DNA of 34,087 bases from a virus. The stretch spans positions 1 to 34,087 of the IMG/VR virus record IMGVR_UViG_3300033153_011469; one strand, given 5' to 3'. The translations under genes and the position numbers were made by a program. This document shows positions 12,985 to 33,270 of the stretch, in pieces. Within the stretch, counting starts at the first letter, position 1; each line of letters begins with the position of its first letter. Under the pieces are notes generated by a model, which saw nothing but the letters and a program-made list of their open reading frames with translations, did not search any database and was not told where the DNA came from.

Positions 12985-13015
12985 AACAAACCCTCTTAAA
13001 ATAATTTTATTATAT

Positions 13016-13052
13016 TATATTCTAATATATTATTATAATATATTAGAATATA
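13016..13052. repeat. 17-bp perfect inverted repeat with 3-base centre
   Basis: TATATTCTAATATATTA and its exact reverse complement are separated by TTA. The element is all A/T except one G and C pair, with no T-run of the kind a simple terminator has. It sits between the lysis block and the tail-fibre block, 32 bases upstream of the ATG at 12984. It could be an operator, a processing hairpin or a weak transcription barrier. The function is not visible. Confidence 0.7.
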
Positions 13053-13054
13053 TA

Positions 13055-13189
13055 TTACCAATTAAATTTAACTTTTATTCCAGTATATTTTACTCCACTA
13101 GGAGTTTTAAATTTTCCTATGCGAACATGTTTCTTAGTCCAGATCCCCGCATTTAAGAGTTTGAATCCGAACTTACCTGCTCCCCCAAC
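13055..13189 (-). CDS. Coding-like ORF in -1 frame after holin, no normal start codon
   Basis: A 44-codon open stretch overlapping the end of the holin gene in the -1 frame. It reads like protein (NAGIWTKKHVRIGKFKTP, then SGVKYTGIKVKFNW) and has no ATG, GTG or TTG. The frame is closed by TGA just upstream, at 13190-13192. A run of five G bases on the minus strand (13182-13186) lies where a -1 slip could carry the holin frame into it. Options are a programmed frameshift giving a C-terminal extension, an unusual start, or a base-count error in the G run. Confidence 0.4.
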   Translation of the reverse strand, partial: VGGAGKFGFKLLNAGIWTKKHVRIGKFKTPSGVKYTGIKVKFNW

Positions 13190-14016: not shown

Positions 14017-14736
14017 TTAGGTATATATTTTATGTGCTAAAAAATGTATATTATCTCTAGTTAGATATCTCATACAATAACTTTTTCTACTTATTATTAT
14101 TTCAAAATCAGATTTTTTAAGTTCTCTTTTTAATGATTCTTGAGACCACATTATATGATGGTCTTTTTTCGACCAATGACTCCAAGCTGGCACACCTATA
14201 CTATTTATAGCATCTATATCTGGAGTAATAATAAATAAACATCCATTTTCATTTAATAAAGAATAACATTTCTCAATAATCTTTTTAGGTTCTAAAAAAG
14301 ACTGAAAAACATCATCCAACCAAATGAGATCAAATTTATTCTCCTTAAAGTCTAATTCTTCAAAACGACCTTCAATAAATCTATCAGACTCACTTTTTTC
14401 ATCTGATAATCCAAAATATATCCATCCTCTATCATTAAAATATTCCTTTTTATATTTCCCACTATATCCCACTTCCAAGACTTTTCTACCATTAGTAATA
14501 TCTTCTATTATATTTAAATATGTTTTTATTGCATGTATGCTTCTTTTCTCTATCTTTTTTATATCATAATTTTTTATTTTAAATTCAGTAGGCTTGTTTT
14601 CTTGAAATATTATATTACAAGAACATTTAAACCAAGAAGTTGGCTCTTTCTCTTCTGCTTTCTCTTTTACATATACTGCATGCCTAGTCATTCTATTACA
14701 AATAGGACAGAACTTATAATCATTATTTACACTCAT
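14017..14736 (-). CDS. Class I SAM-dependent methyltransferase with N-terminal zinc-ribbon
   Basis: A 239-residue protein. A Cys cluster (FCPICNR at residues 9-15 and WFKCSCN at 36-42) suggests a small zinc ribbon. The Rossmann core follows: motif I KVLEVGYSG (84-92), an acidic residue after FGLSDEK, a DLIWLDDVFQS strand at 136-146 and LLNENGCLFIITPD (160-173). This layout is common in glycan-biosynthesis methyltransferases. It overlaps the FkbM gene by 4 bases (ATGA). It probably methylates a sugar or lipid-linked glycan; the substrate is inferred from its neighbours. Confidence 0.75.
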   Translation of the reverse strand: MSVNNDYKFCPICNRMTRHAVYVKEKAEEKEPTSWFKCSCNIIFQENKPTEFKIKNYDIKKIEKRSIHAIKTYLNIIEDITNGRKVLEVGYSGKYKKEYFNDRGWIYFGLSDEKSESDRFIEGRFEELDFKENKFDLIWLDDVFQSFLEPKKIIEKCYSLLNENGCLFIITPDIDAINSIGVPAWSHWSKKDHHIMWSQESLKRELKKSDFEIIISRKSYCMRYLTRDNIHFLAHKIYT

Positions 14737-15539
14737 TTTAACACCTTATGTTTTTTGTTTTTTAAAGTGTCGTAAAATTTTTTATGTTTTTTCATATCTA
14801 GACAAACCATGTTAATTGACCTTAATTCTTTATATATATTAGTTTTATTATTAAAATGATTGGACTTATTAAATAATGGAGGTATATGATAGAATGCTTT
14901 ATATCCTAATTCATTACTAATATAATCTATTATTTTTTTTCTATTATTTTTCCTGTCATTCTCTAAATATATTATTGGTCTATATTTTGATATATGTGAT
15001 TTTGCCCCCTGTAAAACTTCTAATTCCATACCCTCTACATCTATTTTTAAAAAATCAAGCTGATTTATATCTAAAGAATCTAACTGACAACATATTACTT
15101 TGTTTTTAAGCTTTTTATTTTTTTCTAACTCTCATTCTCCAGAGTTATATTTAGAAGAATAGTCATAATCATTATAATTCATAACGCACTGTTCTTTAGA
15201 AATTCCTATATTAAAAGAACGTACATTATGAAGATTATTTAATGAAAGATTACAACATAAAGATAAATAATTTATATGATTTGGCTCTATTGTAATTAAA
15301 TTTTTACATCTTTTTGCTATAGGAACAGATAATAAGCCTGTATTAGATCCTACTTCAACAACAACAGACTTGTCATTTATAAAACAAAAAATAAACTTTA
15401 ACTCATATTCACTATATTCTCCATATTCAACAATAGATCTTCCTAAATAGAAATCGTTTTCATTAACATGAAAAATACCATGCCTTCCATTAATCAATTT
15501 CATATAATTATTTTCTAATATTACTCTATTTGTTTTCAT
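14733..15539 (-). pseudogene. FkbM-family methyltransferase split by an in-frame TGA
   Basis: Both parts lie in the same reading frame over 269 codons with one TGA at 15132-15134. The N-terminal part has the SAM motif VVVEVGSNTGLLSVPIAKR and an acidic strand LITIEPN. The C-terminal part has the FkbM signature LDFLKIDVEGMELEVLQGAK and RPIIYLEND. With the TGA read through, the product would be about 268 residues, a normal FkbM length. After N-S-G-E the stop falls where relatives often have an aromatic residue, so a Trp to TGA change is plausible. TGA ends several other genes here, which argues against recoding. FkbM enzymes O-methylate sugars. Confidence 0.8.
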
Positions 15540-16545
15540 TTTTACTTTTTATATTTATAATTTCTTTTATTCTATTCTCTAATCTATCAGGAGATATTCC
15601 ATAATACATACACCAAGCAGAATTGCTTTCTAATTCTACAGGACATTGTGCATTTAAATCATATATTAATCTACTACAAGGAGAACATTCGGCTAAACTA
15701 GGATCGCTCTCTAAACTTAAATCGTTATAAAAATGTTTTGTTATATTTTCTATAGTAGTATGTCCTAATAATCCAATTTTAGGAGTAGAATAACATCCTG
15801 AACCATGCAACAATCCTGTATCAGGAGATATCACTAAATCAGCATATTTTGTCATAGAAAGAGATTTTCGCATGCTTATATCTCCACTTAAACATTCTAC
15901 TCTTTTATTATTATCCCATCCATGTTCTAAAATCTTACATTTAGTATCTCCTAGAAGAAAAAATCTAACGCTAGGATATAATGATAAAATATTATTAATT
16001 ATAATATCAGTCCAAGGATAACATTTGTTTTTCCCACTACCTGAAAGACCCCATACAATATTAAAATCATTTTTATTGAACATTGATTTTGCTTCTTTTT
16101 CTTCTTTCTTAGTAAAAAATAACTCTGGAATATAAGTATCTATCCCTACCTTTTTGATATCAATATCAGCAAATTTAAAAGAATTCTCATAATAATTTAT
16201 TTTGGAGTATTTAAGTCTTTCATTTTTAGGAGAATTATATTCAGGGTCAGCAGGATGTAAAGCAATTGAAACTTCTATACTTTCAGCAAAATTTATAAAT
16301 AAATCAGCTTTAGTTTTCTTCTTTAAATCTTCCCAATATATATCTAATTTATCATTAGAAACAGAGTCAGATTTATAAAAAATAAACTCATCAATATTTG
16401 GATTATTCTTAAGAATCTCCATTCCTCTTTCAGAAACATTTATGATGATATAATATCCTTGTTGTTTAAGATATCTTATTACTGGAGTTATAATTATACA
16501 ATCCCCATATGCTCCAAATCTACTTATAAGACATTTCTTTAACAT
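15526..16545 (-). CDS. GT9-like (heptosyltransferase-type) glycosyltransferase
   Basis: A 339-residue protein of the GT-B fold. The N-terminal signature is CLISRFGAYGDCIIITPVIR, the GT9 entry loop G-A-x-G-D. The C-terminal sugar-nucleotide half has CLSGDISMRKSLSMTKYADL and SPDTGLLHGSGCYSTPKIGL, the GT9 D-T-G-x-x-H-x-x motif. ADP-heptose LPS heptosyltransferases have this plan. Five Cys in the C-terminal third (CSPCSR and beyond) are unusual and shared with the gene at 16843. Overlaps the FkbM gene by 14 bases. The acceptor is likely a cell-surface glycan. Confidence 0.8.
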   Translation of the reverse strand: MLKKCLISRFGAYGDCIIITPVIRYLKQQGYYIIINVSERGMEILKNNPNIDEFIFYKSDSVSNDKLDIYWEDLKKKTKADLFINFAESIEVSIALHPADPEYNSPKNERLKYSKINYYENSFKFADIDIKKVGIDTYIPELFFTKKEEKEAKSMFNKNDFNIVWGLSGSGKNKCYPWTDIIINNILSLYPSVRFFLLGDTKCKILEHGWDNNKRVECLSGDISMRKSLSMTKYADLVISPDTGLLHGSGCYSTPKIGLLGHTTIENITKHFYNDLSLESDPSLAECSPCSRLIYDLNAQCPVELESNSAWCMYYGISPDRLENRIKEIINIKSKNENK

Positions 16546-23580: not shown

Positions 23581-24906
23581 CTACCAGCCATATCTATTCT
23601 TATTTTTTATATTATTACTTTGCTTGTCATAAAACATTCTTTTTTCTAACTTATTCTTTATAAATCTCAAACCATAAATACCCATAGTAAAAGCATCAGC
23701 CCTATCTGGAGATTTGCTTATTCTTTTACGTGTATCCTCTTTTTTCTCTAAAAGAATCTTCCCATTCCTGCCTTCTGGCTTAAATCTAACACTACTTAAT
23801 TGTTGTATCAACTCTATATCTTTTGGATAATAACATAATACCTTATTTATAACTTCCATTGTATACCACCAAGATTCTGCTCTTTTATTAGCAAACCTAT
23901 CATCAATTGGCTTTTCAGCTCCATTAAAGAATATAACATTATACTCTAACTCTACCATTTTAACCCCAACACCATGACCAATACCACAAGTATCAATTAT
24001 TAACTCTTTAGTATCGTTCTTCATACAAAATGTTGTCAATTGAGAATATATTTTATCAGGATCTCTTGTATATAAATACAAATGATCAACTATTTTAGTA
24101 TCATTAAAAGCGTATGCTACAAACTCATCACCTCCAAACGCTGGATCTATAGATATTATCCTTCTTCCCTCTGAACTAATAGTCTTTATAACCCTTAAAT
24201 CTTCTATCATTTTTGATGTTATTAATGTAAATTCTTCGTCAGCTATGAAAGAACACAACATTTCTTGATTAAATAATACAGGAAGCATTTCTTCCCTTGC
24301 TTTTTCTAACTCTTCTTTACTTATTATGTCACTATCTGTTGCTCTAAGCTGAAGAGTATACCAATCTTCTCTATTAGAAACTTCATTCCACATCTTAAAA
24401 GCATGATTTTGCCCTTTAGGAGTAAAAATAAACATAGCCCATCTTCTAGGGTCTTGAGCCATGATCGGTCTAAATATCTCATTCCATACCTCGCTATGTT
24501 TAAACACAGCCCATTCATCAAAGACAACCCCTTTACAGTCTATACCTCTCAAAGAATCAGGATCATCAGCTCCTTTGATCTGTAATATAGAGCCATTTAA
24601 AAACTCAATATATAACTCTTGTTCCACTTTTCTTTTTATATATTTCTCTGGAATCCATTTAGAAAGCATGTTTGGATCACGCCATATAATGTTTTTTGCC
24701 TGTTTGTATGTAGGTGCAATATATAAATAAACGCTATTGCTATTCAGAAGACATTCTTTGACCAATATATTTAAAGCTAATGTTGTTTTTCTATGTCTTC
24801 TAGCCCAGTTTAACATAAAAAAACGAGCTTCTTTATTGTCAAACGCCTTTAATATCTTCTTTTGACCACTATGCAAAGAACTACAAAACTCTTTAATAGG
24901 TATCAA
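23581..24906 (-). CDS. terL: Terminase large subunit, TTG start
   Basis: 441 residues. ATPase: Walker A is divergent, WARRHRKTTLAL at residues 34-45, without the usual Gly before Lys. Walker B VVFDEWAVF at 127-135, coupling motif FTPKG at 161-165. Nuclease: SIDPAFGG (Asp254), LIIDTCGIG (Asp305), SPDRADAF (401-404). This is a canonical packaging motor and headful nuclease layout. The only early start in frame is TTG at 24906, inside the end of the upstream gene; an ATG start at residue 31 would cut the adenine-binding region. The TTG is therefore chosen. Confidence 0.9.
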   Translation of the reverse strand: MIPIKEFCSSLHSGQKKILKAFDNKEARFFMLNWARRHRKTTLALNILVKECLLNSNSVYLYIAPTYKQAKNIIWRDPNMLSKWIPEKYIKRKVEQELYIEFLNGSILQIKGADDPDSLRGIDCKGVVFDEWAVFKHSEVWNEIFRPIMAQDPRRWAMFIFTPKGQNHAFKMWNEVSNREDWYTLQLRATDSDIISKEELEKAREEMLPVLFNQEMLCSFIADEEFTLITSKMIEDLRVIKTISSEGRRIISIDPAFGGDEFVAYAFNDTKIVDHLYLYTRDPDKIYSQLTTFCMKNDTKELIIDTCGIGHGVGVKMVELEYNVIFFNGAEKPIDDRFANKRAESWWYTMEVINKVLCYYPKDIELIQQLSSVRFKPEGRNGKILLEKKEDTRKRISKSPDRADAFTMGIYGLRFIKNKLEKRMFYDKQSNNIKNKNRYGW

Positions 24907-27381: not shown

Positions 27382-27522
27382 ATGGTAAAAGTAACAAAAA
27401 GCATATCATTAAAAACTGACGATATTATACAAATAGAGAATCGTGCAAACAAACATGGTTTATCTTTTTCAAAAATGATAAATGAGATAATAAGGGAGTA
27501 TTTTGAAGAACATAAAATATAA
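27382..27522 (+). CDS. Ribbon-helix-helix (Arc/CopG-type) regulator
   Basis: 46 residues, too short for most gene finders. The pattern is classic RHH: a strand MVKVTKSISLKTDD, helix 1 IIQIENRANKHGLS, helix 2 FSKMINEIIREYFEEH. Phage P22 Arc and Mnt have this fold and bind operator repeats as dimers. Ribosome site AAGGAGAT, 4 bases before the ATG. Its gene lies between two promoters that share TTGACAACAAT over the -35 box, so it likely represses itself and the early operon. DNA binding is inferred from the fold. Confidence 0.8.
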   Translation: MVKVTKSISLKTDDIIQIENRANKHGLSFSKMINEIIREYFEEHKI

Positions 27523-27532
27523 AACTTAATAT

Positions 27533-27565: not shown

Positions 27566-27594
27566 TTGACAACAATTATATATAGTGTTATATT
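27566..27594 (+). promoter_or_regulatory. Early promoter of the replication block
   Basis: -35 TTGACA (27566-27571), 17 bases, -10 TATATT (27589-27594) preceded by TGT, so an extended -10 as well. The -35 box lies in the 15-bp palindrome ATTGTTGACAACAAT (27562-27576), a good repressor site. It drives the rightward early genes from 27640, which has the ribosome site AAAGGAGA. Confidence 0.8.
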
Positions 27595-27639: not shown

Positions 27640-27984
27640 ATGGAATCAAAAATTAACTTCGAAAATTATTTAGACGATAGACTAGAACCTAATGAACTAG
27701 ATCCATATTTCTATGATTCAAACACAGACCCTTTGTCTTTTATTGAAGAACTTGAGTATTCTTTTAAAGACAAATCTAAGGATGGATTATCTACTTTTCA
27801 TATCTACCTTGAAAAACTTGGAGATTATATTTTAGAAACAGAAGCATATTCAAAAGAACCTAAAAAAACCGATAGAGATCCTTTCTCTTATCTTTCTATG
27901 TTAGAGAGTGCTTTTCTAGAAAGAAATGATTCATGTTTTTATTTTTATATTGGTGCATTAGAAAGTTATATTGACTCTATTTAA
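27640..27984 (+). CDS. Acidic protein with an internal duplication, first early gene
   Basis: A 114-residue protein. Two copies of a 36-residue unit are visible: NTDPLSFIEELEYSF and later IYLEKLGDYI; then DRDPFSYLSMLESAF and later YIGALESYIDSI. Both share DP-x-S-F/Y, LE, F, and a Y-I end. It is strongly acidic (Asp and Glu exceed Lys and Arg by far). The first gene after the strongest early promoter, with an excellent ribosome site, often encodes an anti-host or anti-restriction factor; acidity would fit a DNA mimic. That is inference; no family is recognised. Confidence 0.65.
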   Translation: MESKINFENYLDDRLEPNELDPYFYDSNTDPLSFIEELEYSFKDKSKDGLSTFHIYLEKLGDYILETEAYSKEPKKTDRDPFSYLSMLESAFLERNDSCFYFYIGALESYIDSI

Positions 27985-28003
27985 TAAAAAAAGGAGATTT
28001 AAA

Positions 28004-28600
28004 ATGGAAAATAAAAAAATATACGAAAAAATGAGAAACATACAAATAAGTTTGAAAGCTCCAAAAAAACAAACTAATACTTTTGGAAAATACAAATATA
28101 GAAATCTAGAGGATATATTATCTTCTCTAAAGCCTATATTAAAAAAACATAGTTGTATTATTAATCTATCTGATGAAATAATAAATATATCAGAAAGATT
28201 CTATGTAAAAGCAACGGCAACATTAATTTGCATAGAAACAGAAGGCAAAATATCTTCATCCTCATTTGCAAGAGAATCAGAAATTAAAAAAGGAATGGAC
28301 TCAAGCCAAATAACAGGCTCTTCAAGTAGCTATGCTAGAAAATATGCTTTAAACGGACTGCTTGCTATAGACGATACAAAAGACAGCGATTTCCATGACA
28401 ATAGTATTACAAAACAATATACCCCTTCTCATGTTAATCCTAAAAAAGATCCTTCTATGCTTTTTATAGAACTAGTAGAAAACCAACCTGATAGCCTTGA
28501 ATTAATTGATAATTTTAAAAACATGAATATTGATGAAAAAAGAAAATATTTTACACAAATAAAAAATAGAATATATGAACAAAAGGATAAAAAACAATGA
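28004..28600 (+). CDS. erf: ERF-family single-strand annealing recombinase
   Basis: 198 residues from the ATG at 28004, behind AAAAAAAGGAGATTT. A longer frame to 27971 is out of reach of this ribosome site. The ERF core is present: KYKYRNLEDILSSLKPILKK, VKATATLICIETEGKI, then MDSSQITGSSSSYARKYALN and GLLAIDDTKDSD. P22 Erf anneals single strands and circularises phage DNA by recombination at its terminal repeats. The role fits the circularly permuted window ends. The C-terminal 60 residues are less conserved. Confidence 0.85.
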   Translation: MENKKIYEKMRNIQISLKAPKKQTNTFGKYKYRNLEDILSSLKPILKKHSCIINLSDEIINISERFYVKATATLICIETEGKISSSSFARESEIKKGMDSSQITGSSSSYARKYALNGLLAIDDTKDSDFHDNSITKQYTPSHVNPKKDPSMLFIELVENQPDSLELIDNFKNMNIDEKRKYFTQIKNRIYEQKDKKQ

Positions 28601-28965
28601 AAATATTTATATCAATAATATCACCCATAATAATAATTTTATCTATAGAAATTATATATAATATTTATTTAAAATTGACAGAAAAAAGAAGAAAATCAAA
28701 CATTGAACTTTTACAATATAATAATATTAACAATATCCCAAATTTAAATTCAAGTACAAAAAAAGAAATTTTCAGAATTATTAAAATATTAAATACTGAA
28801 AAAGATATAACTAAAAAACTAGACAAAAGTTCTTTATCTATAATATACGGAAAGAAAAGTTATGATTATTTTGGACAATCAAAAGTATATTATAAAGACA
28901 AAGAAGAAAAAATAGCCTGTATTCATGATGGATTTTTAATAGATGATCAATTAGGAGATGAATAA
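28597..28965 (+). CDS. Membrane-anchored small protein between recombinase and replication genes
   Basis: A 122-residue protein with one N-terminal membrane segment (IFISIISPIIIILSIEIIYN) and a Lys-rich soluble part (KLTEKRRKSNIELLQYN). It ends acidic (HDGFLIDDQLGDE). It overlaps the erf stop (ATGA), and its own stop overlaps the replication protein ATG. A membrane anchor inside a replication operon may tether DNA or a replisome, or act on the host. No family is recognised. Confidence 0.55.
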   Translation: MKIFISIISPIIIILSIEIIYNIYLKLTEKRRKSNIELLQYNNINNIPNLNSSTKKEIFRIIKILNTEKDITKKLDKSSLSIIYGKKSYDYFGQSKVYYKDKEEKIACIHDGFLIDDQLGDE

Positions 28966-29738
28966 TGTCTAAAGACCCAGCTATATTATTTTATACTGCT
29001 GATTTTCTAACTGGCACAATGACAATGTCAGATGACGAAATAGGGAAGTATATTAAACTATTATGTCTACAGCACCAGAAAGGCAAATTAAGTCAAGAAG
29101 ATATAAATTCTGTATGCAAAATTGATATACAAAACATCCTTGATAAATTTGATAAAGATTCTGATGGTTTTTTTTATAACAAAAGACTTAATGAAGAAAT
29201 TAATAAAAGAAAGAAATATTGTAATAGTAGGCGTAAAAATGTATTAAAAAGATATATTAATAATAATAAAACGATACTTAATAAGAGTCTTAAAAAAGAG
29301 GCTACATATGTAGAACATATGAAGAACATATGTAGTACTAGTGTTCTACATATGGAAGATGAAGATAGTATTAGTAATATTAATATTAATACTAATCTTA
29401 ATAAGAATAATCTTAATACAATAAAGCAGTTAAATACTTGTATACTTAGCACTATAGACACTCAAGATAATTTTGAATCTATATGGAATTTATATCCTAG
29501 AAAGATTGGTAAGAAAAAAGCAGAAATACACTTCAAAAAATCTGTAAAAACTAATGATCATGTTAAGAAAATAAAAATTGCACTAGAAAATTATACTAAA
29601 TCTAAATCTTTTAAAGATGGATATATTCAAAATGGTTCTACATGGTTTAATAATTGGGAAGATTGGATTGACTATCAAGAAAAAAATTATAATACAAATA
29701 AAATTGCAAACCAAAAGGGGGTTAATTTAGGATGGTAA
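28965..29738 (+). CDS. Phage replication protein (lambda O / DUF1376-like type)
   Basis: 257 residues. The N-terminus AILFYTADFLTGTMTMSDDE followed by IGKYIKLLCLQHQKGKLSQE matches the DUF1376/YdaU-type replication-initiation winged-helix start. The middle (about 100-160) is low-complexity, rich in Asn, and holds the iterons. The C-terminus FESIWNLYPRKIGKKKAEIH, with IQNGSTWFNNWEDWIDY, is typical of initiators that load helicase. It lies before a DnaC-like gene, as lambda O lies before P. It is likely to bind its own origin within the gene and recruit the loader. Confidence 0.75.
   Translation: MSKDPAILFYTADFLTGTMTMSDDEIGKYIKLLCLQHQKGKLSQEDINSVCKIDIQNILDKFDKDSDGFFYNKRLNEEINKRKKYCNSRRKNVLKRYINNNKTILNKSLKKEATYVEHMKNICSTSVLHMEDEDSISNININTNLNKNNLNTIKQLNTCILSTIDTQDNFESIWNLYPRKIGKKKAEIHFKKSVKTNDHVKKIKIALENYTKSKSFKDGYIQNGSTWFNNWEDWIDYQEKNYNTNKIANQKGVNLGW
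29304..29427 (+). other. Candidate replication origin: four 11-bp-phased iterons plus AT-rich stretch
   Basis: ACATATG begins copies at 29304, 29315, 29326 and 29348: ACATATGTAGA, ACATATGAAGA, ACATATGTAGT and ACATATGGAAG. The spacing is 11, 11 and 22, one and two helical turns. The first is part of a 12-bp palindrome CTACATATGTAG (29302-29313). An A/T-only or almost A/T stretch follows (29366-29427), with an inverted repeat ATTAGTA / TACTAAT at 29370-29396. Lambda ori has the same plan: iterons plus an unwinding region inside gene O. Confidence 0.7.
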
Positions 29739-30499
29739 AAAACATAAATGATTTATTAAAAAATTATAGAAACAAAACTATGACAATAAGAAATACAAAA
29801 TGTATTTGCTGTAAAAAAATAATGCAAAACAAATTTACAGATGAAATATTTTTTGATCATAAACATAAACAAATCAGCGATATAATTTTTCCACAAACAG
29901 CAAATTTATGTTCTAGTCATTGTAAAAACAGATTTTATAAAATTTTAATTGATAATATTACTATAAAAAACTTAGATAAAAAAACAAAAGAATTACCTCT
30001 AAGATTTAGAGATAAAACTCTAGAAAATTATAAAAACATCAACCCAAAAATACTAGAATATATCTCTAGAGAGAATCCTAATAGTTTATTATTAACTGGA
30101 AAATCAGGAACAGGAAAAACACATTTGGCAATAGGGCTATATAAAAAAATTATTTTAAAAAATAAAACAGTTAAATTTATTCCTTTCATAGAAATGATTC
30201 ATGAGATAAAAAACAGTATAAACACAGATATAAACAGCAAAATTGATAGTTTTACTAAATATGATTATTTAATCATAGATGACCTAGGATCTGAGAAAAC
30301 AACAGATTGGATTAAAGAAATTCTTTATTTAATTTTCGATAGAATTTATAGAGAAATGAGAAACGTTATAATTACAACGAATATGACTTCTAGCGAAATG
30401 TCTGAAAGATACGATTATAAAATAGTTTCTAGATTTAGTGAAATGGGATATGCGATTACTTTTAATGGAAAAGACTACAGAATAAACACAATGCATTAA
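29732..30499 (+). CDS. DnaC-like helicase loader (AAA+ ATPase)
   Basis: 255 residues. Walker A is GKSGTGKT at 123-130, Walker B YLIIDDLG at 179-186, sensor-like VIITTNM at 212-218, and Arg-finger-like IVSRFSEM near 231-238. The N-terminal 90 residues carry a Cys motif (CICCKK at 24-29; NLCSSHC at 58-64) that may bind zinc, as in DnaC/IstB relatives. The start overlaps the replication-protein stop (GGATGGTAA). Loads the host DnaB helicase at the phage origin. Together with the upstream gene this replaces a phage polymerase: none is encoded. Confidence 0.85.
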   Translation: MVKNINDLLKNYRNKTMTIRNTKCICCKKIMQNKFTDEIFFDHKHKQISDIIFPQTANLCSSHCKNRFYKILIDNITIKNLDKKTKELPLRFRDKTLENYKNINPKILEYISRENPNSLLLTGKSGTGKTHLAIGLYKKIILKNKTVKFIPFIEMIHEIKNSINTDINSKIDSFTKYDYLIIDDLGSEKTTDWIKEILYLIFDRIYREMRNVIITTNMTSSEMSERYDYKIVSRFSEMGYAITFNGKDYRINTMH

Positions 30500-31336: not shown

Positions 31337-31915
31337 ATGATGAAAAATTATTTTAAAGCCGTAAAAATATACAACATAAAGAATTTAAAAGATTTTCCTG
31401 AAGAATTTAGAACAAAAGAATTATGTTGGAAATGTGTAAAAGGAACATATGGATGGGGATTAGAATATGTTCCTGAAAAATTTAAAACAAAAGAGTTATG
31501 CTGGGAAGCTATAAAAACATATCCATGGGCTTTAGAATATACTCCTAAAGAGCTAATAACTTATGAATTATGTTTATCTATAATACAAGAAGTCAATTCC
31601 TTAAATTGTATAATTCAAAATCTAGATATATTAAAATATGTACCTGAGAAATTTAAAACTTATGAATTATGCTTAGAATCTGTTACTAGCGATTCTTCTT
31701 TAGAATATGTTCCTGAGAAATTCAAAACCAAAGAAATGTTTTTAGAGGCTGTATCTTATAGCACTAAGATAGACAAAAGAAATTTTAAGGAAGATATGCC
31801 ATTACATTGGGTTTCTTGGAGATATACTAGAGAACCTAAGTCAGAGTTTGTTCCAGAAAAAATAAAACAAAAAAATAGTTTAAAAACAAGGATTAAAAAA
31901 TATGGAAGTTACTAG
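31337..31915 (+). CDS. DUF4116-type repeat protein (copy 1)
   Basis: A 192-residue protein. The unit of about 23 residues is A-L-x-Y-V-P-E-K-F-K-T-x-E-L-C-x-E-A-V/I. Copies include LEYVPEKFKTKELCWEAIKT, LKYVPEKFKTYELCLESVTS and LEYVPEKFKTKEMFLEAVSY. This matches the repeats known as DUF4116, which are of unknown function and seen in some bacteria and large viruses. About five copies plus a degenerate basic end (EKIKQKNSLKTRIKKYG). The next copy gene starts inside its end. Confidence 0.75.
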   Translation: MMKNYFKAVKIYNIKNLKDFPEEFRTKELCWKCVKGTYGWGLEYVPEKFKTKELCWEAIKTYPWALEYTPKELITYELCLSIIQEVNSLNCIIQNLDILKYVPEKFKTYELCLESVTSDSSLEYVPEKFKTKEMFLEAVSYSTKIDKRNFKEDMPLHWVSWRYTREPKSEFVPEKIKQKNSLKTRIKKYGSY

Positions 31916-32237
31916 TACTAGTGTTACTAGACCATCTGATACAGATCCTTATAGTTCTAAAGCTTATAATAATATGAAAACAAACGCTTTTACAAAATTT
32001 TTTGAAGAAAATGAAAAAAACATGTATTATTGGTGTAATGCAGTAAGGTTTCCTAGAAAACTTACTGCAGAAATGTGCTTAGAGACTGTTAAATACTATG
32101 GCAATGCCTTAGAATATGTTCCTGAAAAACTAAAAACTTATGAATTATGTCTAGAAGCTGTTAAACAAGATGGAGATGCTTTAGAATATGTTCCTGAAAA
32201 TTTAAAAGATATTATAATTAAAAAATTAAAAACATAA
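31902..32237 (+). CDS. DUF4116-type repeat protein (copy 2)
   Basis: A 111-residue protein. The N-terminus is Ser/Thr-rich (EVTSTSVTRPSDTDPYSSKA), then KNMYYWCNAVRFPRKLTAEM, then two clear repeats: CLETVKYYGNALEYVPEKLK and CLEAVKQDGDALEYVPENLK. Overlaps the end of copy 1 by 14 bases. A 17-base DNA identity with copy 1, TTAGAATATGTTCCTGA, suggests recent duplication or conversion. Function unknown. Confidence 0.75.
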   Translation: MEVTSTSVTRPSDTDPYSSKAYNNMKTNAFTKFFEENEKNMYYWCNAVRFPRKLTAEMCLETVKYYGNALEYVPEKLKTYELCLEAVKQDGDALEYVPENLKDIIIKKLKT

Positions 32238-32252
32238 ATAAAGAGGAATAAA

Positions 32253-32411
32253 ATGCCAATATCTGAATGCAAATTTAACAATGATGAAATAAGAGAATTT
32301 TATCCAATTCCAATTGATTTAAAAGATAAAACATTGCATAAGACCCTTATGTTCAAAAAAAGGATGGAGAATAAAAATCATAATATGAGGTTAAATAATG
32401 GATGTAATTGA
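32253..32411 (+). CDS. Very small protein between repeat and coiled-coil genes
   Basis: 52 residues (MPISECKFNNDEIREFYPIP, then IDLKDKTLHKTLMFKKRMEN). Ribosome site AAGAGGAA before the ATG, and 14 bases of overlap with the next gene. It is too short to appear in many gene lists. No family is recognised; the basic C-terminus may bind nucleic acid. Confidence 0.55.
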   Translation: MPISECKFNNDEIREFYPIPIDLKDKTLHKTLMFKKRMENKNHNMRLNNGCN

Positions 32412-32757
32412 AATATCCAAGAAAATAGAAGAGAAAATTTTATTACTAGAAAAAGGCAGAGAAATATTAAAAGAAAGAGCAGAATTAAAAGCTTATGCCA
32501 TATCTCATTATGAAAAAACGTTAGCAATTACAATTATAAAACTTAGGAACAATGTACCTATGGAATTAGAAGGTCAAAAAATAGATAAGCTACCAACTAC
32601 TATTATTGAGAAAACTGCAAAAGGAATTTGTTGGAGAGAAAAATTAGATCTAGAAAAAAAAGAAGCTGAATATAGAAGTGCTGTAATTGGAATGGATAGT
32701 ATAAAAGCAGAGTTGAACGGATATCAAAGTGTTAATAGGTACTTAGATGAAAAATGA
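32398..32757 (+). CDS. Helical protein of a common phage type, function unknown
   Basis: A 119-residue protein. The N-terminus is a coiled coil (ISKKIEEKILLLEKGREILK), the middle holds SHYEKTLAITIIKLRNNVPM, and the end is SIKAELNGYQSVNRYLDEK. The K-A-E-L-N-G-Y-Q-S ending is frequent in small phage proteins near recombination or replication genes, but their job is not established. The gene is solid by frame and length. Confidence 0.6.
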   Translation: MDVIEISKKIEEKILLLEKGREILKERAELKAYAISHYEKTLAITIIKLRNNVPMELEGQKIDKLPTTIIEKTAKGICWREKLDLEKKEAEYRSAVIGMDSIKAELNGYQSVNRYLDEK

Positions 32758-32775
32758 AAACATTATAATAATTCA

Positions 32776-32784
32776 TGATATAAT
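32776..32784 (+). promoter_or_regulatory. Extended -10 promoter before repeat protein copy 3
   Basis: TGATATAAT on the plus strand (TATAAT at 32779-32784), in ATTCATGATATAATAA (32771-32786), which occurs also on the minus strand at 18757-18772. The strong ribosome site AAAAAGGAG and the ATG at 32815 follow. No good -35 box is seen. Confidence 0.6.
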
Positions 32785-32814
32785 AAACATTATTAATTAA
32801 AAAGGAGAAACAAA

Positions 32815-33270
32815 ATGGGATTAGATGAGATTATAAATAATAGAAGAACAACTACTAAGACATTAAAAGAAATAAAACAAAATGCTTGGATTTTACAAAT
32901 AATACCAGATGAAGAAATAACCTATGAGATGTGTGTAGAAGCAACAAATAAAGATGGAAAAACATTGTCGATTGTCCCTGAAAAACATAGAACAGAAGAA
33001 ATCTGTTTAGCATGTGTTAAAAAATATGGATTATTATTAAAAGAAGTTCCAGAAAATCTTAGAACAGAAGAAATTTGTCTAGAAGCTGTTAAACAAAATG
33101 GCTGGGCTCTTCAATTTGTAGTAAACCAAACATTAGAAATATGTCAAGAAGCAATTGATTATGATGGAAGAGCAATAAAATTCATTAATTCTAATCTAGT
33201 TCCTTCTGATATGACTTCTACTAGAATGAATAAGATAGTTTATAAAGGGTCTAAAGTGATTCCAAATTAA
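32815..33270 (+). CDS. DUF4116-type repeat protein (copy 3)
   Basis: A 151-residue protein with about four to five degenerate repeats: ILQIIPDEEITYEMCVEATN, LSIVPEKHRTEEICLACVKK, LKEVPENLRTEEICLEAVKQ and LQFVVNQTLEICQEAIDYD. It is more diverged than copies 1 and 2 and has its own promoter and ribosome site AAAAAGGAG. C-terminus is basic and Ser-rich. The HNH frame begins in the overlap of its stop codon. Function unknown. Confidence 0.75.
   Translation: MGLDEIINNRRTTTKTLKEIKQNAWILQIIPDEEITYEMCVEATNKDGKTLSIVPEKHRTEEICLACVKKYGLLLKEVPENLRTEEICLEAVKQNGWALQFVVNQTLEICQEAIDYDGRAIKFINSNLVPSDMTSTRMNKIVYKGSKVIPN

Follow-up and report, generated by a model that had tools for sequence, protein, structure and literature searches.

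In phage lambda the replication origin lies within gene O, where iterons are followed by an A/T-rich region of approximately 40 bp and, after the gene, by a second initiation gene, and in Stx phages two extra iterons merely add 13 residues to the O protein (PMC5043065, PMC7466680). Direct repeats and an A/T-rich unwinding element also make up oriL of the Bacillus subtilis phage SPP1, inside gene 38, with gp39 as loader and gp40 as helicase (PMC6316719), and the Rac prophage has an active origin, oriJ (PMC3945230). An earlier note on the virus record analysed here (34,087 bases, taken whole and referred to as the window) had proposed a lambda-style origin and remarked that lambda and its relatives place ori in the same way, a remark borne out by the mapping of the lambda and Stx origins inside gene O (PMC5043065, PMC7466680). 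The proposal also agrees with the anatomy of the locus, in which iterons and then an unstable A/T tract lie inside an initiator gene, with the gene for a helicase loader next in line. We consider it very probable that positions 29302-29424 are a phage replication origin, at which the N-terminal domain of the initiator would bind the iterons, the tract would open, and the loader would bring in a helicase.

Up to about 27.2 kb the genes of the window lie on the minus strand, and from about 27.4 kb they lie on the plus strand. The early plus-strand set includes a gene for an ERF-type ssDNA annealing protein (27971-28600; Pfam ERF, E 8.7e-42), the initiator gene (28965-29738, 257 aa), and a gene for a DnaC-like AAA+ helicase loader (29732-30499; PHROG 50, E 9.4e-47; Pfam IstB and Bac_DnaA ATPase). 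The GC-skew minimum, at 28848, is close to the iterons but does not constitute independent evidence, as it lies near the change of gene direction. Relatives of the phage identified through its putative major capsid protein (14 records; loci 40-55% identical) lacked this initiator, which made a close whole-phage comparison impossible, and a pattern scan with the DnaC-like protein returned no relatives. Elsewhere in the plus-strand region, a ribbon-helix-helix-like ORF of 46-47 aa (27382-27525), too short for the ORF list, sits between the divergent gene sets, with two copies of TATAATAATTATT, 22 nt apart, on its 3' side and upstream of a promoter-like TTGACA-17-TATATT at 27566; and adjacent ORFs at 31337-33270 consist of DUF4116 repeats, two of them matched by Pfam at E 3.3e-21 and 3.8e-19. 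On the minus strand, 15132-15539 and 14733-15029 share one frame and resemble an FkbM-type methyltransferase split by an in-frame stop; they adjoin a glycosyltransferase of family 9 (15526-16545) and another methyltransferase (14017-14736), an unusual set among phage structural genes.

The initiator comprises a DUF1376-like N-terminal domain, a disordered linker and a C-terminal domain with a W..YP motif. The Pfam match (DUF1376, PF07120, the YdaU N-terminal domain; E 7.6e-7) spans the first 80 residues and, at 29.9 bits, falls just below the curated cut-off of 30.1; DUF1376 is detected at E <= 0.01 in 24 of 44 aligned members, the window protein included. Its matches among PHROG families are annotated as primosomal (9327, E 4.5e-19) and as replication initiation protein (270 and 9474, E 7.9e-11 and 1.8e-10). 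As the Pfam scan (E <= 0.1) yielded DUF1376 and one weak, unrelated match, with no lambda O family, the description of this gene as 'lambda-O-like' in the earlier note holds for role and architecture, but not for sequence. An AlphaFold2 model built from 42 sequences predicts two confident domains, with pLDDT mostly above 90 in the C-terminal domain and below 50 in linker residues 125-163; a model made without an alignment (pLDDT 41) was set aside. The N-terminal domain (about residues 1-105, encoded by 28965-29280) is proposed to be an iteron-binding winged helix. Structural comparison of residues 10-82 returned mostly winged helices, including ORC2, ArsR/MarR repressors and the DnaD N-terminal domain, albeit weakly (best Z 5.8, rmsd 3.3 over 70 residues); Foldseek returned no match to the modelled domain at E <= 0.001, nor did its profile match any solved structure. 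The C-terminal domain (residues 166-235, encoded by 29460-29669) is a candidate contact for the loader or helicase. Residues 114-154 are encoded by the iterons and the A/T tract.

Four copies of ACATATG, at spacings of 11, 11 and 22, had been reported here, and were found on the plus strand of the window at 29304-29310, 29315-29321, 29326-29332 and 29348-29354. The array repeats with a unit of 11 bp, the core of which is a 6-bp palindrome, and the lattice position that is skipped between the third and fourth copies holds a degenerate unit on the same phase, TAGTACTAGTG (29333-29343), which shares 7 of 11 bases with TAGAACATATG. One copy had been assigned to a 12-bp palindrome: the palindrome, CTACATATGTAG, is perfect and has the first iteron as its core, but it occupies 29302-29313 and so begins two bases ahead of the region as then delimited. 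An inverted repeat, CATATGTAG / CTACATATG, with a loop of 10, spans 29327-29354. The fourth iteron is followed by GGAAGATGAAGAT, and the last iteron of relatives is likewise followed by GGAAAATGAAAAT. Since 3 does not divide 11, the copies fall in all three frames and are translated as TYV, EHM, NIC and LHM. A protein-level repeat was considered as the cause of the array and ruled out on this ground, since copies that fall in all three frames could not arise from it.

The 60-base, nearly pure A/T stretch with an inverted repeat that the earlier note placed after the array corresponds to 29365-29424, our proposed DNA unwinding element. It contains 7 G/C in 60, is the least stable 60-nt stretch of the gene, and is surpassed in instability by only 0.2% of all such stretches in the window. 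Within it, on the plus strand, TA steps come at almost every third position (TAG TAT TAG TAA TAT TAA and so on; 29366-29419, 54 nt), forming the longest and strongest such run in the window, with a score of 12, where 200 simulated genomes gave no more than 7. Of its 18 codons, 17 end in T, a bias reached in none of 20,000 synonymous resamplings based on plus-strand gene codon use and at p 0.003 by synonymous shuffling within the gene, the choice of this codon test having been made once the tract had been seen. G is rare in the run, which may serve melting only.

When the gene was shuffled synonymously 20,000 times, some 7-mer occurred four times within 60 nt in 65 shuffles, and four copies shared one lattice in 76; the corresponding counts in simulations were 3 of 200 (order-2 Markov genomes, 34 kb) and 0 of 300. 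Taken from the window alone, the array is therefore unlikely but modest evidence, as about 0.3-0.4% of synonymous shuffles produce its like given the protein. The initiator ranks first for frame-breaking repeats among all predicted genes of the window, ranks two and three being T-rich stretches. Only one other cluster of four 7-mers in 60 nt was found, that of TATATTA at 13011-13057, which is irregular and intergenic; it belongs to a set of A/T-rich inverted repeats between genes (12985-13152) that is perhaps a terminator or a second cis site.

A far wider comparison came from searching all viral contigs for ACATATG-N4-ACATATG-N4-ACATATG, without any protein information. This returned 51 loci, many of them near-duplicates (17 non-redundant proteins), and the pattern fell inside an ORF in 41. 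In 37 of these 41 the ORF starts with the N-terminal domain seen in the window protein (DPA-x-LFY), and one more (L052) resembles a shortened copy. The N-terminal domains of the genes found in this way are 48-58% identical to that of the window, and their C-terminal parts are of several unrelated-looking kinds. Arrays of ACATATG at 11 bp also occur outside DUF1376-like ORFs (L009/L049, L018/L055, L019/L051, L029, L032 and L047/L057; in L018, TTTTACATATG occurs four to five times), and are perhaps other origins or operators.

Relatives were also chosen by protein only, through an alignment of the N-terminal domain (80 loci, reduced to 39 non-redundant complete genes). In this sample, which leans to the CATATG clade because some of the genes that seeded the alignment had come from the DNA-pattern search, CATATG occurs at 5.58 per kb (0.24 in the remaining ORFs of those loci), and at least three copies are present in 32 of the 39 genes. 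Successive copies are most often 11 nt apart (55 times), followed by 12 (16) and 22 (5). Synonymous shuffles were exceeded by all copies (146 observed vs 78 +/- 4.6), by those outside the His-Met frame (85 vs 25 +/- 3.9) and by pairs at 11 or 22 (68 vs 10.4 +/- 2.8), and isoleucine in the iteron peptides is encoded by ATA in 29 of 29 cases, as compared with 249 of 523 (48%) across the set. The 60 nt after the linker array are A/T-richer than the gene in all 38 genes with such an array; the consensus after the last CATATG is GGAAAATGAAAATGAAAAT, where the window has GGAAGATGAAGATAGT. The earlier note had suggested asking whether related phages keep the iterons though the amino acids vary, and had named as evidence against an origin the retention of the amino acids with loss of the 11-base phasing. 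The opposite was found: word and 11-base spacing are kept, and linker and C-terminal amino acids vary. CATATG is absent from four genes (L007, L085, L164 and L166) that have this N-terminal domain but are more distantly related, and one of them, L085, has another 11-nt repeat in its place.

For a complementary set, assembled around the C-terminal domain, 80 loci from viruses and 80 from bacterial genomes were combined with those found earlier, giving 91 non-redundant complete genes that have this domain in common; a scan of bacterial-genome proteins with the single initiator sequence found nothing, and it was the alignment-based scan which recovered loci there. Repeats at periods that are not multiples of 3, assessed by synonymous shuffles of each gene at a threshold of 0.01, were significant in 33 of the 91 genes and in none of 211 neighbouring control genes, with periods of 11 (11 genes) and 22 (7 genes) the commonest. 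Given these counts and the lead of these two periods, phased, frame-breaking linker repeats are a habit of this initiator class, as judged from sequence. The distance from the end of the array to the C-terminal domain downstream is at most about 265 nt in all but one case and within 100 nt in over half, and a Walker-A ORF within 2 kb lies downstream in 39 of the 91 and upstream in 3. The pooled autocorrelation of linker DNA has weak peaks at 11, 12, 22 and 24, and the per-gene tests are far more telling. The repeat words vary within this set, and CATATG is found at 0.17 per kb in relatives with the same C-terminal domain but other N-terminal domains. CATATG thus tracks the N-terminal and not the C-terminal domain across relatives, which points to the former as its likely reader. 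Between iterons and C-terminal domain, nine loci (L121, L188, L190, L191, L214, L221, L239, L095 and L106) also carry pentanucleotide-type repeats (AGTATAGATAAG, ACCTGACCTT, AGAGA), some of them frame-breaking; these were set aside, being absent from the window.

Together, the anatomy of the region, its conservation in the family, the predicted domains and the adjacent loader gene suggest how an origin might operate here, through initiator binding, opening and helicase loading. The DUF1376-like winged-helix domain of the 28965-29738 product would bind the CATATG iterons, all of which the 11-bp lattice would set on one face of the helix. With iterons so aligned and a palindromic core at each site, a row of initiator molecules could assemble on the phased sites, and strain from the bound initiators could then open the adjoining tract at 29365-29424. 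The C-terminal domain and the DnaC-like loader (29732-30499) would bring a DnaB-type helicase of the host to the opened strands. The origin would occupy the coding sequence of the disordered linker that joins the two domains, a placement which may explain why it is tolerated within a gene. As judged by titles and abstracts, the literature surveyed contained no binding, opening or replication data for a DUF1376 protein, and DUF1376 was named together with phage and replication in no more than three papers, a single time in each, whose titles and abstracts did not concern its function.

Several other accounts of the array deserve consideration. Binding sites within an operon can act as roadblocks, and a palindromic CATATG core resembles the site of a repressor, such that the iterons might be initiator sites for controlling expression of the initiator and loader, by autoregulation or as a transcription roadblock, with replication starting elsewhere. 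We regard this as improbable, as the sites are not at the beginning of the gene but 340 nt inside it, the linker array is succeeded by an unstable A/T tract in 38 of 38 relatives, and no comparably regular, frame-breaking array was found in other genes or intergenic regions of the window. Equally, the tract could be a DnaA-trio element of a host DnaA-dependent origin that the phage protein only assists: the trio consensus is 3'-GAT-5' (PMC10201434), and the run of TAG TAT TAG TAA on the plus strand, unrivalled in the window, reads as 3'-NAT-5' on the minus strand. Yet 28900-29800 is free of DnaA boxes even when 2 mismatches are allowed, the position of the tract is taken by GAAAAT or other A/T repeats in most near relatives, and TAN runs scoring at least 5 are confined to 8 of the 91 relatives that share the C-terminal domain (0 of 211 controls), all of which makes a DnaA-dependent origin very unlikely.

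That the array is an accident of low-complexity coding sequence in an A/T-rich genome is scarcely credible, even if linkers are low in complexity and a lattice of four 7-mers does emerge from 76 of 20,000 shuffles, for a period of 11 breaks the reading frame, word and spacing are kept among relatives beyond what the protein demands, and such repeats are absent from all 211 control genes. Iteron-like arrays occur also at centromere-like and packaging sites, which would allow a part in packaging initiation, recombination or partition; this too we consider exceedingly improbable, since the array follows one replication-initiator domain across phages with differing C-terminal domains, and adjoins the loader gene, with the large terminase gene at 23581-24906.

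A replication origin thus being our preferred reading, a broader arrangement comes into view. Many near relatives (L008-L058 and L244-L323) bear two CATATG arrays, one in the coding part for the N-terminal domain (gene nt 120-160) and one in the linker; in L296, for example, they lie at gene nt 135-157 and 294-327. The peptide at the first array is HM..IC.TYD in these relatives, and QEDINSVCKIDIQ in the window phage, which has the linker array only. We see even chances that a large class of phage initiators binds its origins through the DUF1376 domain, and that the CATATG clade has a split origin, its two arrays, approximately 130-165 bp apart, overprinted on the binding domain (nt 120-160) and the linker (nt 285-345). 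If so, the same DNA would encode the DUF1376 domain and be read by it.

For a domain that Pfam lists without a function, these findings put forward one that can be tested, as well as a recognition word (CATATG, repeated on an 11-bp lattice), and they suggest that origins in uncultured phages might be sought through frame-breaking repeats of 11 or 22 bases in the linkers of initiators. They also illustrate how a DNA signal can dictate a segment of protein, as reading ACATATG in three frames yields the linker peptide TYVEHMKNIC, and the S/I/N/T-rich stretch after it is associated with codons conducive to easy opening of the tract.

In comparison with described systems, the locus shares with lambda and Stx phages the order of iterons, A/T tract, remainder of the gene, and second initiation or loader gene. 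It differs in its iterons, which in lambda are inverted repeats of 19 bp to which O binds as a dimer and in the window are a 7-bp word on an 11-bp lattice, and in that its initiator does not match the lambda O family and its loader is DnaC-like rather than akin to lambda P. SPP1 is alike in having repeats and an A/T-rich unwinding element inside an initiator gene, but no sequence match was found between its proteins and those of the window, and it has a second origin, oriR, and a helicase of its own. The lactococcal phages BK5-T and phi31 resemble the window in their C-terminal domain, which is homologous (38-40% identity), and in having linker repeats at the corresponding position, where the GenBank record of BK5-T annotates a repeat_region (34602-34683), although their N-terminal domain is another and their repeats are different and longer (about 43-45 nt). 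In the Rac prophage of E. coli K-12, ydaU (L324:5120-5977) is annotated as DUF1376 and is followed by an ATPase gene, ydaV; the linker of ydaU carries TGTTCA at gene positions 360, 393 and 426, in 33-nt steps (3 x 11; repeats p 0.024), a word other than CATATG. The position of oriJ relative to ydaU was not found in the literature surveyed, and it is possible, as a lead rather than a result, that these TGTTCA repeats form part of oriJ. In-gene iteron origins are, then, already known; what is new is the link between a DUF1376-type domain and a defined DNA word, how widely it occurs among uncultured phages, and, in many near relatives, a second array within the part of the gene that encodes the binding domain.
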